Positions 413 through 46,671 of a DNA stretch of 64,000 nucleotides are shown here, piece by piece; the first letter of the stretch is position 1; every line of letters begins with the position of its first letter. The stretch is from the NCBI RefSeq assembly GCF_038024105.1, contig NZ_CP150661.1:1941001-2005000 (forward strand). The letters run 5' to 3'. This DNA comes from Polaribacter butkevichii (GTDB lineage: Bacteria; Bacteroidota; Bacteroidia; Flavobacteriales; Flavobacteriaceae). The position numbers and the translations under genes are program-made. The notes under the pieces were generated by a model. The model worked only from the letters and a program-made list of their open reading frames with translations. It did not search any database and was not told the DNA's origin.

Positions 413-520
413 TAAAAAAAAGCGTCCCGTTTCAGGGAAGCTTTCCATTGGTTAACAAAACCACGACGCTTTTACTAAAGCGCCAAAACAACACAACTAA
501 TGCTGCCCTAACAAAAAGCA
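413..520 (-). ncRNA. Candidate structured small RNA with its own promoter and terminator
   Basis: A leftward transcript is predicted from a textbook promoter (526-555) to a T run at 420-414. The 3' half folds by eye into a closed multibranch: an outer 9-bp stem pairs 418-426 with 465-473 and encloses three small hairpins at about 427-436, 436-446 and 449-463. The 5' part has its own hairpin (501-506 with 517-522). The segment just 5' of the outer stem, around 474-483, can instead pair with the outer-stem strand at 465-473, giving an alternative fold. There is no open reading frame, and the next gene leftward lies on the other strand, so a trans-acting RNA is more likely than a riboswitch. I do not recognise it as SRP RNA, tmRNA, 6S or RNase P RNA. 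Confidence 0.6.
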
Positions 521-525
521 GCCGA

Positions 526-555
526 CAAATATACGATGTTTTTAAATATTCTCAA
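526..555 (-). promoter_or_regulatory. Promoter of the ncRNA candidate
   Basis: On the minus strand a -33 TTG (555-553) and a -7 TATATTTG (533-526) are separated by 19 bases. This is the same spacing and -7 sequence as at the tRNA-Val and tRNA-Glu promoters in this window. Confidence 0.75.
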
Positions 556-586
556 ATAAAGATGTTGTTTTTTATTTTATTCTCAA

Positions 587-616
587 TTGTCTATTAATTC
601 ATTTGATTGTATCTTT
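587..616 (+). promoter_or_regulatory. lysS promoter; decides the lysS start
   Basis: TTG at 587-589, 19 bases, then TATCTTTG at 609-616. The upstream in-frame TTG codon at 587 is the -33 element itself, so translation must begin further down, at the ATG at 653. Confidence 0.75.
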
Positions 617-652
617 GCAATCTTAAATAAACATCAGAAAACTAAACAGCAA

Positions 653-2347
653 ATGCAATTATCAGAACAAGAAGTTGTACGTAGAGAAAAGCTCGTAAAA
701 TTACGCGCTTTAGGCATCAATCCTTATCCTGCAGATTTATATCCTATAGATTCAAATTCGGCAAAGATAAAGCAAGAGTATGCTGAAGGAAAAAAGGTAA
801 TTATTGCTGGTAGACTAATGTCTATTAACATACAAGGAAAAGCTTCTTTTGCACAACTGCAAGATGGAGAAGGTAGAATACAAGTGTATTTTAACCGTGA
901 TGAAATTTGTATTGGTGAGGATAAAACGTTGTACAATGATGTTTTTAAAAAATTACTAGATTTAGGTGATTTTGTTGGTATAGAAGGGGAATTGTTTACT
1001 ACTAAAGTAGGCGAAAAAACAGTGCGTGTTAAGAACTTTACATTGTTAAGTAAGTCTTTAAAACCATTGCCTTTACCAAAAGTAAAAGACGGTGTTACTT
1101 ATGATGCTTTTACAGATCCTGAATTACGTTACAGACAACGTTATGCAGATTTAGTGGTAAACCCACACGTAAAGGAAGTATTTATAAAAAGAACTAAATT
1201 GTTTAACGCAATGCGTTCTTTCTTTAATGATGCTGGTTATTTTGAAGTTGAAACTCCGGTTTTACAACCAATTCCTGGAGGTGCAGCAGCAAGACCTTTT
1301 ATAACACATCATAACTCATTAGACATTCCATTATACATGAGAATTGCTAATGAATTGTATTTAAAAAGATTAATTGTTGGTGGTTTTGATGGTGTGTATG
1401 AATTTTCTAAAAACTTTAGAAATGAAGGAATGGACAGAACTCATAACCCTGAATTTACAGCCATGGAAATCTATGTATCTTACAAAGATTACAATTGGAT
1501 GATGGATTTTGCTGAGCAACTTTTAGAGCATTGTGCTATTGCTGTAAACGGAACTTCTGAAGCTACTTTTGGTGAACACAAAATAGACTTTAAAGCGCCT
1601 TATGCAAGAGTAACAATGGCAGATTCTATTAAACATTTTACTGGTTTTGATATTACAGGTAAAACAGAAGCTGAAATTAGAGAAGCTGCTAAAGGCATGA
1701 ATATTCCTGTGGATGAAACAATGGGAAAAGGAAAATTAATTGATGAGATTTTTGGTGAGAAATGTGAAGGAAACTACATTCAGCCAACTTTTATTACCGA
1801 TTATCCTAAAGAAATGTCTCCGCTTTGTAAAGAACATAGAGACAACCCAGAGTTAACAGAGCGTTTTGAGTTAATGGTTTGTGGTAAAGAAATTGCCAAT
1901 GCATATTCTGAATTAAATGACCCAATTGACCAACGTGAGCGTTTTGAGCATCAATTAAAATTAGCTCAAAAAGGAGATGATGAAGCAACTGAGTTTATTG
2001 ATGAAGATTTCTTAAGAGCTTTAGAATACGGTATGCCGCCAACGTCTGGAATGGGAATTGGAATGGACCGTTTAATTATGTTCTTAACAAACAACCAATC
2101 TATACAAGAAGTTCTTTTCTTCCCTCAAATGAGACCAGAGAAAAAAGCGGCTGCAGTAGAATTAAATAGCGATGAAAAAGCTGTTTTAGCGATTGTTACC
2201 AAAGCAGAAAAAATAGATCTAAACGACTTAAAAGTAAAGTCTGGTTTATCTAACAAAAAATGGGATAAAACCATTAAAGGTTTAACAAAACATAAAGTTG
2301 CAAAGGTGTCTAAAACAGATGAAGGTTTGTTTGTAGAGCTTGTGTAA
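653..2347 (+). CDS. lysS: Lysine--tRNA ligase, class II
   Basis: Charges tRNA-Lys with lysine in the cytoplasm. The 564-residue protein begins MQLSEQEVVRREKL. An N-terminal OB-fold anticodon domain covers about residues 40-160, followed by the class II catalytic core with motif 2 (FRNEGMDRTHNPEF) and the motif 3 region (GMGIGMDRLIM). After the usual end near FFPQMRPE there is a tail of about 60 residues resembling a small winged helix (KAVLAIVTKAEKIDLNDLKVKSGLS), which I recall from other Bacteroidetes LysS proteins. The start at 653 is chosen because the promoter covers the longer in-frame start. Confidence 0.96.
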   Translation: MQLSEQEVVRREKLVKLRALGINPYPADLYPIDSNSAKIKQEYAEGKKVIIAGRLMSINIQGKASFAQLQDGEGRIQVYFNRDEICIGEDKTLYNDVFKKLLDLGDFVGIEGELFTTKVGEKTVRVKNFTLLSKSLKPLPLPKVKDGVTYDAFTDPELRYRQRYADLVVNPHVKEVFIKRTKLFNAMRSFFNDAGYFEVETPVLQPIPGGAAARPFITHHNSLDIPLYMRIANELYLKRLIVGGFDGVYEFSKNFRNEGMDRTHNPEFTAMEIYVSYKDYNWMMDFAEQLLEHCAIAVNGTSEATFGEHKIDFKAPYARVTMADSIKHFTGFDITGKTEAEIREAAKGMNIPVDETMGKGKLIDEIFGEKCEGNYIQPTFITDYPKEMSPLCKEHRDNPELTERFELMVCGKEIANAYSELNDPIDQRERFEHQLKLAQKGDDEATEFIDEDFLRALEYGMPPTSGMGIGMDRLIMFLTNNQSIQEVLFFPQMRPEKKAAAVELNSDEKAVLAIVTKAEKIDLNDLKVKSGLSNKKWDKTIKGLTKHKVAKVSKTDEGLFVELV

Positions 2348-7703: not shown

Positions 7704-7807
7704 CTTTGCTACTTTTAAGTATTTATATTAATTCTTCTGAGCAAAGTGTACAACAATACAATACACAACTAATTTACATCAATTGTATAGTTAAGTAATA
7801 AACCTTT

Positions 7808-7918
7808 TCTTCTCTCATCCAGACTTTAACTGTCGGTTTTGGAGTTTCACCAAATCAGTCCTTTTTAAGGGAGTCGCGGACTTTTACCGCCGGTAGAGAA
7901 TTACACTCTGCCCTGAAG
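7808..7918 (-). promoter_or_regulatory. FMN riboswitch (RFN element) controlling ribB
   Basis: On the minus strand the conserved RFN blocks appear in order: TTCAGGGCAGAGTG, CTACCGGCGGTAAAAGTC, CGCGACTCCC, GATTTGGTGAAACTCC, CCGACAGT and GTCTGGATGAGAGAAGA. It precedes ribB. I see no clear terminator hairpin between the aptamer and the ATG, so the mode of control is undecided. Confidence 0.96.
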
Positions 7919-7928
7919 AAATTCACTA

Positions 7929-21322: not shown

Positions 21323-21330
21323 TATATTTG
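21323..21330 (+). promoter_or_regulatory. rpsO -7 box; decides the rpsO start
   Basis: TATATTTG followed by C, with T-rich sequence about 20 bases upstream. Transcription would start near 21337, so an in-frame ATG at 21339 would leave no leader; the ATG at 21387 fits the S15 family start. Confidence 0.65.
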
Positions 21331-21386
21331 CAGCTTCAATGAAATCTATCATTGATATACATAATAATCATTTAAATAATATTGGA

Positions 21387-21656
21387 ATGTATTTAACTAA
21401 AGAAGTAAAAGAAAGCATCTTCGAAAAACACGGTAAAGGAAAAAACGATACTGGTTCTTCAGAAGGTCAAATTGCATTATTCACTTACAGAATTAACCAT
21501 TTAACAGAACACTTAAAAAACAATCGTAAAGATTATAATACAGAGCGTTCATTAGTAATGTTGGTTGGTAAACGTAGAAGTTTATTAGATTATCTAAAGA
21601 AAACTGATATTGTAAGATATCGTGAAATAATTAAAGAATTAGGAATTAGAAAATAA
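21387..21656 (+). CDS. rpsO: 30S ribosomal protein S15
   Basis: Binds 16S rRNA helix junctions. The 89 residues begin MYLTKEVKESIFEKHGKGKN, the usual S15 start in Bacteroidetes, and include NDTGSSEGQIALFTYRINHL and LVGKRRSLLDYL. A leader of about 50 bases precedes it; autoregulation by S15 is known in other bacteria but no recognised fold is apparent here. rpsO followed by pnp is a widely conserved order; here each has its own promoter and a terminator lies between them. Confidence 0.97.
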   Translation: MYLTKEVKESIFEKHGKGKNDTGSSEGQIALFTYRINHLTEHLKNNRKDYNTERSLVMLVGKRRSLLDYLKKTDIVRYREIIKELGIRK

Positions 21657-46148: not shown

Positions 46149-46234
46149 GCTGAAGTGGTGGAATTGGTAGACACGCTGGACTTAAAATCCAGTGGTCAGT
46201 AATGGCCGTGCGGGTTCAAGTCCCGCCTTCAGTA
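46149..46234 (+). tRNA. tRNA-Leu (anticodon TAA), copy 1
   Basis: Class II tRNA with a long variable arm (GGTCAGTAATGGCC), acceptor GCTGAAG/CTTCAGT, anticodon loop CTTAAAA and T arm with TTCAAGT. CCA is not encoded. Confidence 0.95.
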
Positions 46235-46238
46235 CAAT

Positions 46239-46581: not shown

Positions 46582-46667
46582 GCTGAAGTGGTGGAATTGG
46601 TAGACACGCTGGACTTAAAATCCAGTGGTCAGTAATGGCCGTGCGGGTTCAAGTCCCGCCTTCAGTA
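46582..46667 (+). tRNA. tRNA-Leu (anticodon TAA), copy 2
   Basis: Same sequence as the tRNA at 46149-46234. Confidence 0.95.
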
Positions 46668-46671
46668 CAAT

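Follow-up and report, generated by a model that had tools for sequence, protein, structure and literature searches.

The 3'ETS-leuZ RNA of E. coli is a small RNA derived from a tRNA trailer that acts as a sponge of other small RNAs in a host with Hfq, and joint control of purine genes is known from the PurR repressor and from purine riboswitches. Rfp18 of Flavobacterium psychrophilum is linked to metalloproteases via its third stem-loop in the text of PMC9723704. We analyzed by computation a window of 64,000 nucleotides from Polaribacter butkevichii (the whole stretch of DNA under study) and describe an RNA gene beside lysS that in many relatives lies just 3' of a tRNA, and whose conserved seed is complementary to the leaders of purine genes.

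Results

Promoter, Predicted Transcript, and Parts of the RNA Gene

The locus lies on the minus strand, divergent from lysS, and comprises the following features:

653-2347, plus strand: lysS, lysine--tRNA ligase, the neighboring gene (open reading frame; its protein recovers the neighbor genes of relatives)
610-617, plus strand: TATCTTTG, putative promoter box of the divergent lysS, outside the RNA (sequence; conserved in the alignment)
553-556, minus strand: promoter element TTTG (-33), 19 nt from TATATTTG (sequence)
526-533, minus strand: promoter element TATATTTG (-7, TAnnTTTG), with 0-1 changes among 33 genus copies
414-521, minus strand: predicted small RNA transcript (promoter position and terminator; +1 placed at about 521)
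502-522, minus strand: hairpin 1 (GCUGC/GCAGC), a 5' extension of the lysS-side copies (two-sided changes)
489-497, minus strand: single-stranded seed GUUGUGUUG, invariant in 31 sequences, unpaired, at the complementarity peak
465-484, minus strand: hairpin 2 (two-sided changes at 8/8 pairs in alignment A5)
450-462, minus strand: hairpin 3 (GGUU/AACC; alignments A2 and A5, low variation)
435-451, minus strand: conserved block CCAAUGGAAAGCUUCCC, overlapping hairpin 3 and the terminator 5' arm (conservation)
414-444, minus strand: intrinsic terminator, AAAGC..CCC/GGG..GCUUU plus U-run (sequence, model pairs)

The initial annotation had read a promoter of the form TTG-N19-TATATTTG, and the two elements are indeed present on the minus strand (TTTG at 556-553, box at 533-526) with the 19-nt spacing of a Bacteroidota-type promoter. 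Because PMC9723704 places the TAnnTTTG box at -12 to -5, transcription would start at about 521 and run leftward for about 108 nt to the T-run that closes the gene on the minus strand (421-414). The roughly 108 noncoding bases and the intrinsic terminator of that annotation are likewise borne out: no open reading frame of 60 aa or more lies within the RNA stretch on the minus strand, and the gene to the left is convergent, leaving no same-strand gene downstream. Sequence evidence thus gives the locus the parts of a stand-alone noncoding transcription unit with a terminator, and we take it to be a conserved small-RNA gene with its own promoter.

No known family could be assigned, as had been stated from the letters: an Rfam 15 covariance-model scan of the window returned no family at its gathering score at the RNA locus, and a permissive scan of 380-660 gave as its best match RAGATH-25, on the plus strand, at 22.0 bits (E 0.0026; gathering score 49). 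6S-Flavo (RF01685) has no match at the locus and matches elsewhere in the genome at 76.4 bits, below its 85-bit cut-off; the bacterial small SRP RNA (RF00169) likewise has no match here, its gene lying elsewhere with 50.8 bits, over the cut-off. At other places in the window, the Rfam scan gave matches above the gathering score to an FMN riboswitch (7803-7924, minus strand) and to the S15-Flavobacteria ribosomal protein leader (21323-21389, plus strand), as well as two tRNA-Leu(taa) genes of equal score (46149-46235 and 46582-46668) that are separated by about 430 bases and perhaps arose by duplication. A search for Hfq (PF17209) found no match in the window's genome, and 5 of 14 control genomes matched, so that the RNA is not classed as an Hfq-dependent sRNA.

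Local Hairpins Covary and Leave the Seed Largely Unpaired

The stretch 530-413 folds better than its shuffles (z -3.79; 1 of 200 shuffles as good). A fold begun at 530 pairs the seed; in a fold begun at 522, nearer the predicted +1, a four-hairpin structure wins. Over 522-413, four separate hairpins reach -38.1 kcal/mol vs. -31.0 for the best fold containing a 465-473/418-426 stem, so that the multibranch fold originally drawn, with the terminator stem enclosing further hairpins, is not confirmed.

Across relatives the local hairpins covary strongly at the sequence level. In alignment A2 (30 distinct rows, structure-fitted), 99.3% of hairpin cells pair and 11 of 28 pairs show two-sided changes (shuffled mean 5.1). 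Such changes occur at all 6 modeled pairs of hairpin 1 and at 5 of its pairs in an independent MAFFT alignment, which misaligns hairpin 2. Alignment A5 (64 distinct rows, from 65 copies at 58 chosen loci, excluding copies whose 5' part was misaligned by covariance model R1) was fitted to the model and therefore favors the structure; in it 97.4% of cells pair vs. 75.2% in shuffles, falling to 59.5-62.6% when partners are slid by one column, and 21 of 28 pairs have two-sided changes (389 cells vs. 104 shuffled). Hairpin 3 offers little covariation evidence because it varies little, and the 10 modeled terminator pairs are invariant within the genus. Alignment A1 was made without L026, which is cut by a contig end, and without L028, and a weak minus-strand match in L038 was ignored.

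The 465-473/418-426 stem can form in the window's sequence, and its percentage paired and its covariation score were each matched by only 1 of 500 shuffles. In relatives, however, 89.4% of its cells pair vs. 99.3% for the hairpins, 15 of the 30 distinct sequences cannot form one of the nine pairs, and two-sided changes are confined to one pair (5 cells), a count reached by 443 of 500 shuffles. Neither the long enclosing fold nor the switch between two folds that had been suggested draws support from folding or from the stem changes in relatives. The seed has a median unpaired probability of 0.85 over 33 genus copies and 0.98 over 167 copies not adjoining lysS; in the window's own RNA the mean is 0.58.

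The RNA Is Widespread in the Flavobacteriaceae and Often Follows tRNA-Asp

A DNA search of 59 genomes found the RNA region beside lysS in 32 of the 35 genomes of the same genus; those that lack a match are 53, 57, and 71% complete. The promoter box, GUUGUGUUG, and GGUUUUGUUAACCAAUGGAAAGCUUCCC are near-fixed within the genus, and hairpins 1 and 2 vary with compensation. At E <= 0.01 and under stricter filters, model R1 matches 149 of the 397 genomes of the family, the weakest of these including chance matches. L087 and L088, which lack the seed and match R1 by chance near E 0.001-0.01, were rejected as true copies, as was L175, a chance exact-pattern match in other sequence with no terminator. 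A core covariance model, R2, built from 65 copies, has matches in 59 of the 346 genomes sampled from the order and in 37 of the 345 sampled from the phylum, two samples that overlap; all matches are in Flavobacteriaceae, and at least three same-family genomes of the order sample and at least one of the phylum sample have no match. The match is single in 56 of the 59 carrier genomes of the order sample. The RNA is therefore no orphan, as it had been called, being present in most genomes of the genus and spread across the family.

A motif count gave 226 nonredundant copies in loci that had been collected by similarity, by covariance model, or by exact pattern; the sample is nonrandom, and motif conservation within it is partly built in. 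On the same strand and within 260 nt 3' of a tRNA, always tRNA-Asp, lie 120 of these copies; 17 follow a 3' fragment of tRNA-Asp, 59 are divergent from lysS, and the remaining 30 lie in other settings. A TAnnTT(T/C)G box at most 45 nt upstream of the seed is absent from all 137 tRNA-Asp or half-tRNA copies and present in 71 of the 89 others (57/59 lysS copies and 14/30 of those elsewhere). Because this box is missing, we infer cotranscription with tRNA-Asp for the tRNA-linked copies. Fourteen promoter-bearing copies adjoin neither a tRNA nor lysS; in all of them 4 nt separate the box from the seed, which would place +1 on the first G of the seed, so that the RNA would begin with GUUGUGUUG.

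Copies of Tenacibaculum, Polaribacter, and Lutibacter have their own promoter and lie next to lysS, those of Tenacibaculum carrying an extra hairpin in front of the seed; the lysS-like neighbor in one relative (L042) scores as lysine--tRNA ligase. No tRNA linkage was seen in the window or in the genus loci scanned. The initial description named the RNA "antiparallel to lysS", but lysS adjoins it in some genera only; its "tRNA-class promoter" is apt in an unexpected way, many relatives carrying the RNA behind tRNA-Asp.

A further hairpin with a T-run lies between tRNA and RNA in 91 of the 120 tRNA-linked copies (e.g., L054, L062, and L119), in several cases inside a longer stem. It is possibly an attenuator between the two and could then set the tRNA:sRNA ratio.

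Some tRNA-linked copies follow a DUF58 gene, which is preceded by a thioredoxin gene in L060 and L063. At six loci (L066, L067, L069, L070, L072, and L132), only the 3' part of tRNA-Asp precedes the sRNA, and in L066 and L072 the same stretch also holds an intact tRNA-Asp with its sRNA. Half-tRNA copies are what islands typically leave behind on integration into a tRNA gene, and the sRNA would thereby have been duplicated or carried.

The RNA also lies behind tRNA-Asp in genomes of g147, which we take to be Flavobacterium because the g147 copies equal or closely match the copies from ten named contigs of that genus. Further copies come from metagenome bins (L159, L179, L197, and L206) that bear the names Nitrotoga, Saprospiraceae, Rhizobium, and Chryseobacterium gleum. 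In L159, L197, and L206 it follows tRNA-Asp and resembles the copies of Flavobacterium, which makes mislabeled or mixed bins likely; true presence outside the Flavobacteriaceae is possible.

The Seed Matches Leaders of Purine Genes

The invariant, unpaired GUUGUGUUG is complementary to CAACACAAC, which occurs at 55 places in the window's genome, one being the sRNA gene itself. We read all 54 other sites together with their flanks, and ten of them fall at the starts of nine genes, either at most 60 nt ahead of the start or within the first codons (about 2 expected by chance, a rough estimate): purA, purD, a purM-like gene, purH, guaA, prs, rpe, pnp, and a thioredoxin gene. We identified purA, purH, purD, guaA, prs, rpe, and pnp by NCBIfam from partial proteins; the purM-like gene has an AIR synthase domain (Pfam) and matches NCBIfam purM at E 1e-18, below the cut-off. 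Counting prs, which also has a part in other pathways, six of the nine genes belong to purine synthesis. The guaA site covers codons 3-5, and the predicted seed-site duplexes range from -15.2 to -21.1 kcal/mol. The other 44 sites are not at gene starts and count against reading the purine genes as targets.

We examined the leaders of purD, purM-like, purH, and prs, chosen from the sites in the window's genome that were the source of the purine idea, in 20 further family genomes and in 10 genomes of other families (36 leaders, since no leader was recovered with one of the purD queries and three of the purM queries). The exact site occurs in 20 of 84 family leaders, including the window genome's four (purD 5, purM 4, purH 7, and prs 4, of 21 each). 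Outside the genus it is present in 13 of 72 purine leaders vs. 0 of 36 in families lacking the sRNA (Fisher p 0.004) and 0 of 702 other family leaders (p 1e-14), p-values that are optimistic because related leaders are not independent. The 702 background leaders precede open reading frames of at least 180 aa starting with ATG, leaving out L252-L327 (fetched by CAACACAAC), nonfamily loci, L064, L065, L096, and four oddly titled contigs.

CAACACAAC is unchanged when its letters are reversed, which voids the built-in control of the pattern search, and we used permutations instead. CAACACAAC ranks first among 126 same-letter permutations, the next four reaching 7, 7, 6, and 4 outside the genus, all of them similar runs that can overlap CAACACAAC. 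Seed-leader duplexes have a median energy of -8.6 for the purine leaders of the family, compared with -5.65 for those of other families and -5.5 for the background. None of 60 shuffled seeds reached the mean energy difference of the true seed (-3.5); shuffled seeds show some excess as well (mean -1.1), because these purine leaders are rich in A and C. When an 11-nt segment is moved along the sRNA, against 400 background leaders that may have included purine leaders, the complementarity excess has its maximum at 497-487 (-3.2 kcal/mol) and does not exceed 0.8 in segments outside the seed. The conserved, unpaired seed is hence complementary to mRNA leaders above controls.

The exact site follows a -7 box in 19 of 20 leaders, and 17 of the 20 sites begin 9-21 nt before the ATG. 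Sites farther upstream include prs in one genome (38 nt), pnp (43 nt), and the thioredoxin gene (55 nt). The exact site is lacking from 64 of 84 family purine leaders, and the gene that bears it differs between genomes; shorter seed matches are frequent in purine leaders.

Discussion

We propose, with a probability of about 0.78, that the locus encodes a trans-acting sRNA of the Flavobacteriaceae whose seed would pair with the leaders or translation starts of purine genes, and the earlier proposal of a stand-alone structured RNA, with action in trans as its best explanation, agrees with this. GUUGUGUUG would be held single-stranded between hairpins in the window's copy or, in certain other genera, judging from where the promoter lies, would form the extreme 5' end of the RNA. 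In either place it could base-pair with sites of the CAACACAAC type, located ahead of or slightly within the starts of purine-pathway mRNAs, the candidate targets being prs, purD, purM-like, purH, purA, and guaA, together with rpe, pnp, and thioredoxin. Pairing would most likely hinder translation initiation. In many genera the promoterless RNA would be cut out of a tRNA-Asp precursor, and the signal is perhaps growth rate, acting through the tRNA promoter: the position behind tRNA-Asp suggests coupling to it. Purine synthesis uses aspartate as a substrate, a possible but not a necessary reason for the partnership with tRNA-Asp. Two observations count against the purine reading besides the sites away from gene starts and the family purine leaders that lack an exact site: the conserved 3' block CCAAUGRRARGCUU stays outside its account, and the seed of the window's own RNA is only partly unpaired and is paired in the fold begun at 530.

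The sRNA probably represses its targets at translation initiation, a direction we chose because most exact sites sit a short way upstream of the ATG and that of guaA falls within its first codons, where pairing should block ribosomes. The main rival, that the RNA pairs with the same leaders and activates them, opening or stabilizing the mRNA so as to match purine supply to tRNA and rRNA synthesis, would fit a tRNA-Asp linkage that raises the sRNA when stable-RNA synthesis is high, as well as the sites farther upstream in prs, pnp, and the thioredoxin gene; set against the ribosome block to be expected from sites at 9-21 nt and in guaA, activation appears unlikely to us. A doubt of another kind concerns the sites themselves. 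Were CAACACAAC a DNA operator for a transcription factor, its complement being merely resembled by the sRNA, the proximity of the sites to promoters (0-60 nt after the -7 box where a box is seen) would be natural, but they occur in the sense orientation only (21 vs. 0 antisense), one lies within the codons of guaA, the peak of complementarity coincides with the invariant stretch of the sRNA, and the exact site is missing from all 36 leaders where the sRNA is absent; we regard an operator as improbable.

Readings that dispense with the purine genes fare worse still. That the RNA is a housekeeping RNA missed by Rfam, such as a divergent 6S or SRP RNA, would accord with its spread in the family and its single match in most carrier genomes, yet 6S-Flavo and SRP RNA match other loci of the same genome and no Rfam family reaches its gathering score at this one, which makes the idea very improbable. 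Almost no weight can be given to a cis-acting lysS element, an antisense or leader RNA controlling lysS: 59 of the examined copies, including those of Tenacibaculum, Polaribacter, and Lutibacter, are divergent from lysS, but the two promoter boxes predict starts at about 521 (RNA) and 622 (lysS) and hence transcripts that run apart with no overlap, and 167 of the 226 do not adjoin lysS. We reject a lysS-specific role because most examined copies sit elsewhere.

Returning to the proposed trans-acting sRNA, we lean slightly toward a family-wide regulon in which one Hfq-free sRNA, often cotranscribed with tRNA-Asp, would control purine synthesis from PRPP to AMP and GMP at translation starts, coupling the use of purines (and aspartate) to stable-RNA transcription in the role of PurR or purine riboswitches, with tRNA-Asp islands carrying or duplicating it. 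If true, this would provide a conserved Bacteroidota sRNA in a genome without detected Hfq, with an exact site of 9 nt and a regulon that can be tested, and would tie purine synthesis to a tRNA gene across a large family. To our knowledge, translation starts of these bacteria lack Shine-Dalgarno sequences, and the RNA would be a clean system for sRNA action at such starts.

A narrow literature search matched no paper to the RNA, and we do not claim that it is absent from print. Rfp18 and the other Rfp sRNAs are, like the present RNA, structured, noncoding, and conserved in Flavobacterium (PMC9723704), and one of them may be identical to it; the main text of that paper does not contain the words purine, purD, or guaA. 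6S-Flavo RNA is also flavobacterial, structured, and about 110 nt long; it differs in that its best match in the window's genome is another locus. With 3'ETS-leuZ our RNA shares its place behind a tRNA, and it departs from that RNA in having a conserved seed that matches mRNA leaders, in promoter-bearing copies away from tRNA, and in a host genome where no Hfq was found. Finally, whereas PurR and purine riboswitches exert control by a protein or by RNA in cis, the Flavobacteriaceae RNA is proposed to act in trans.
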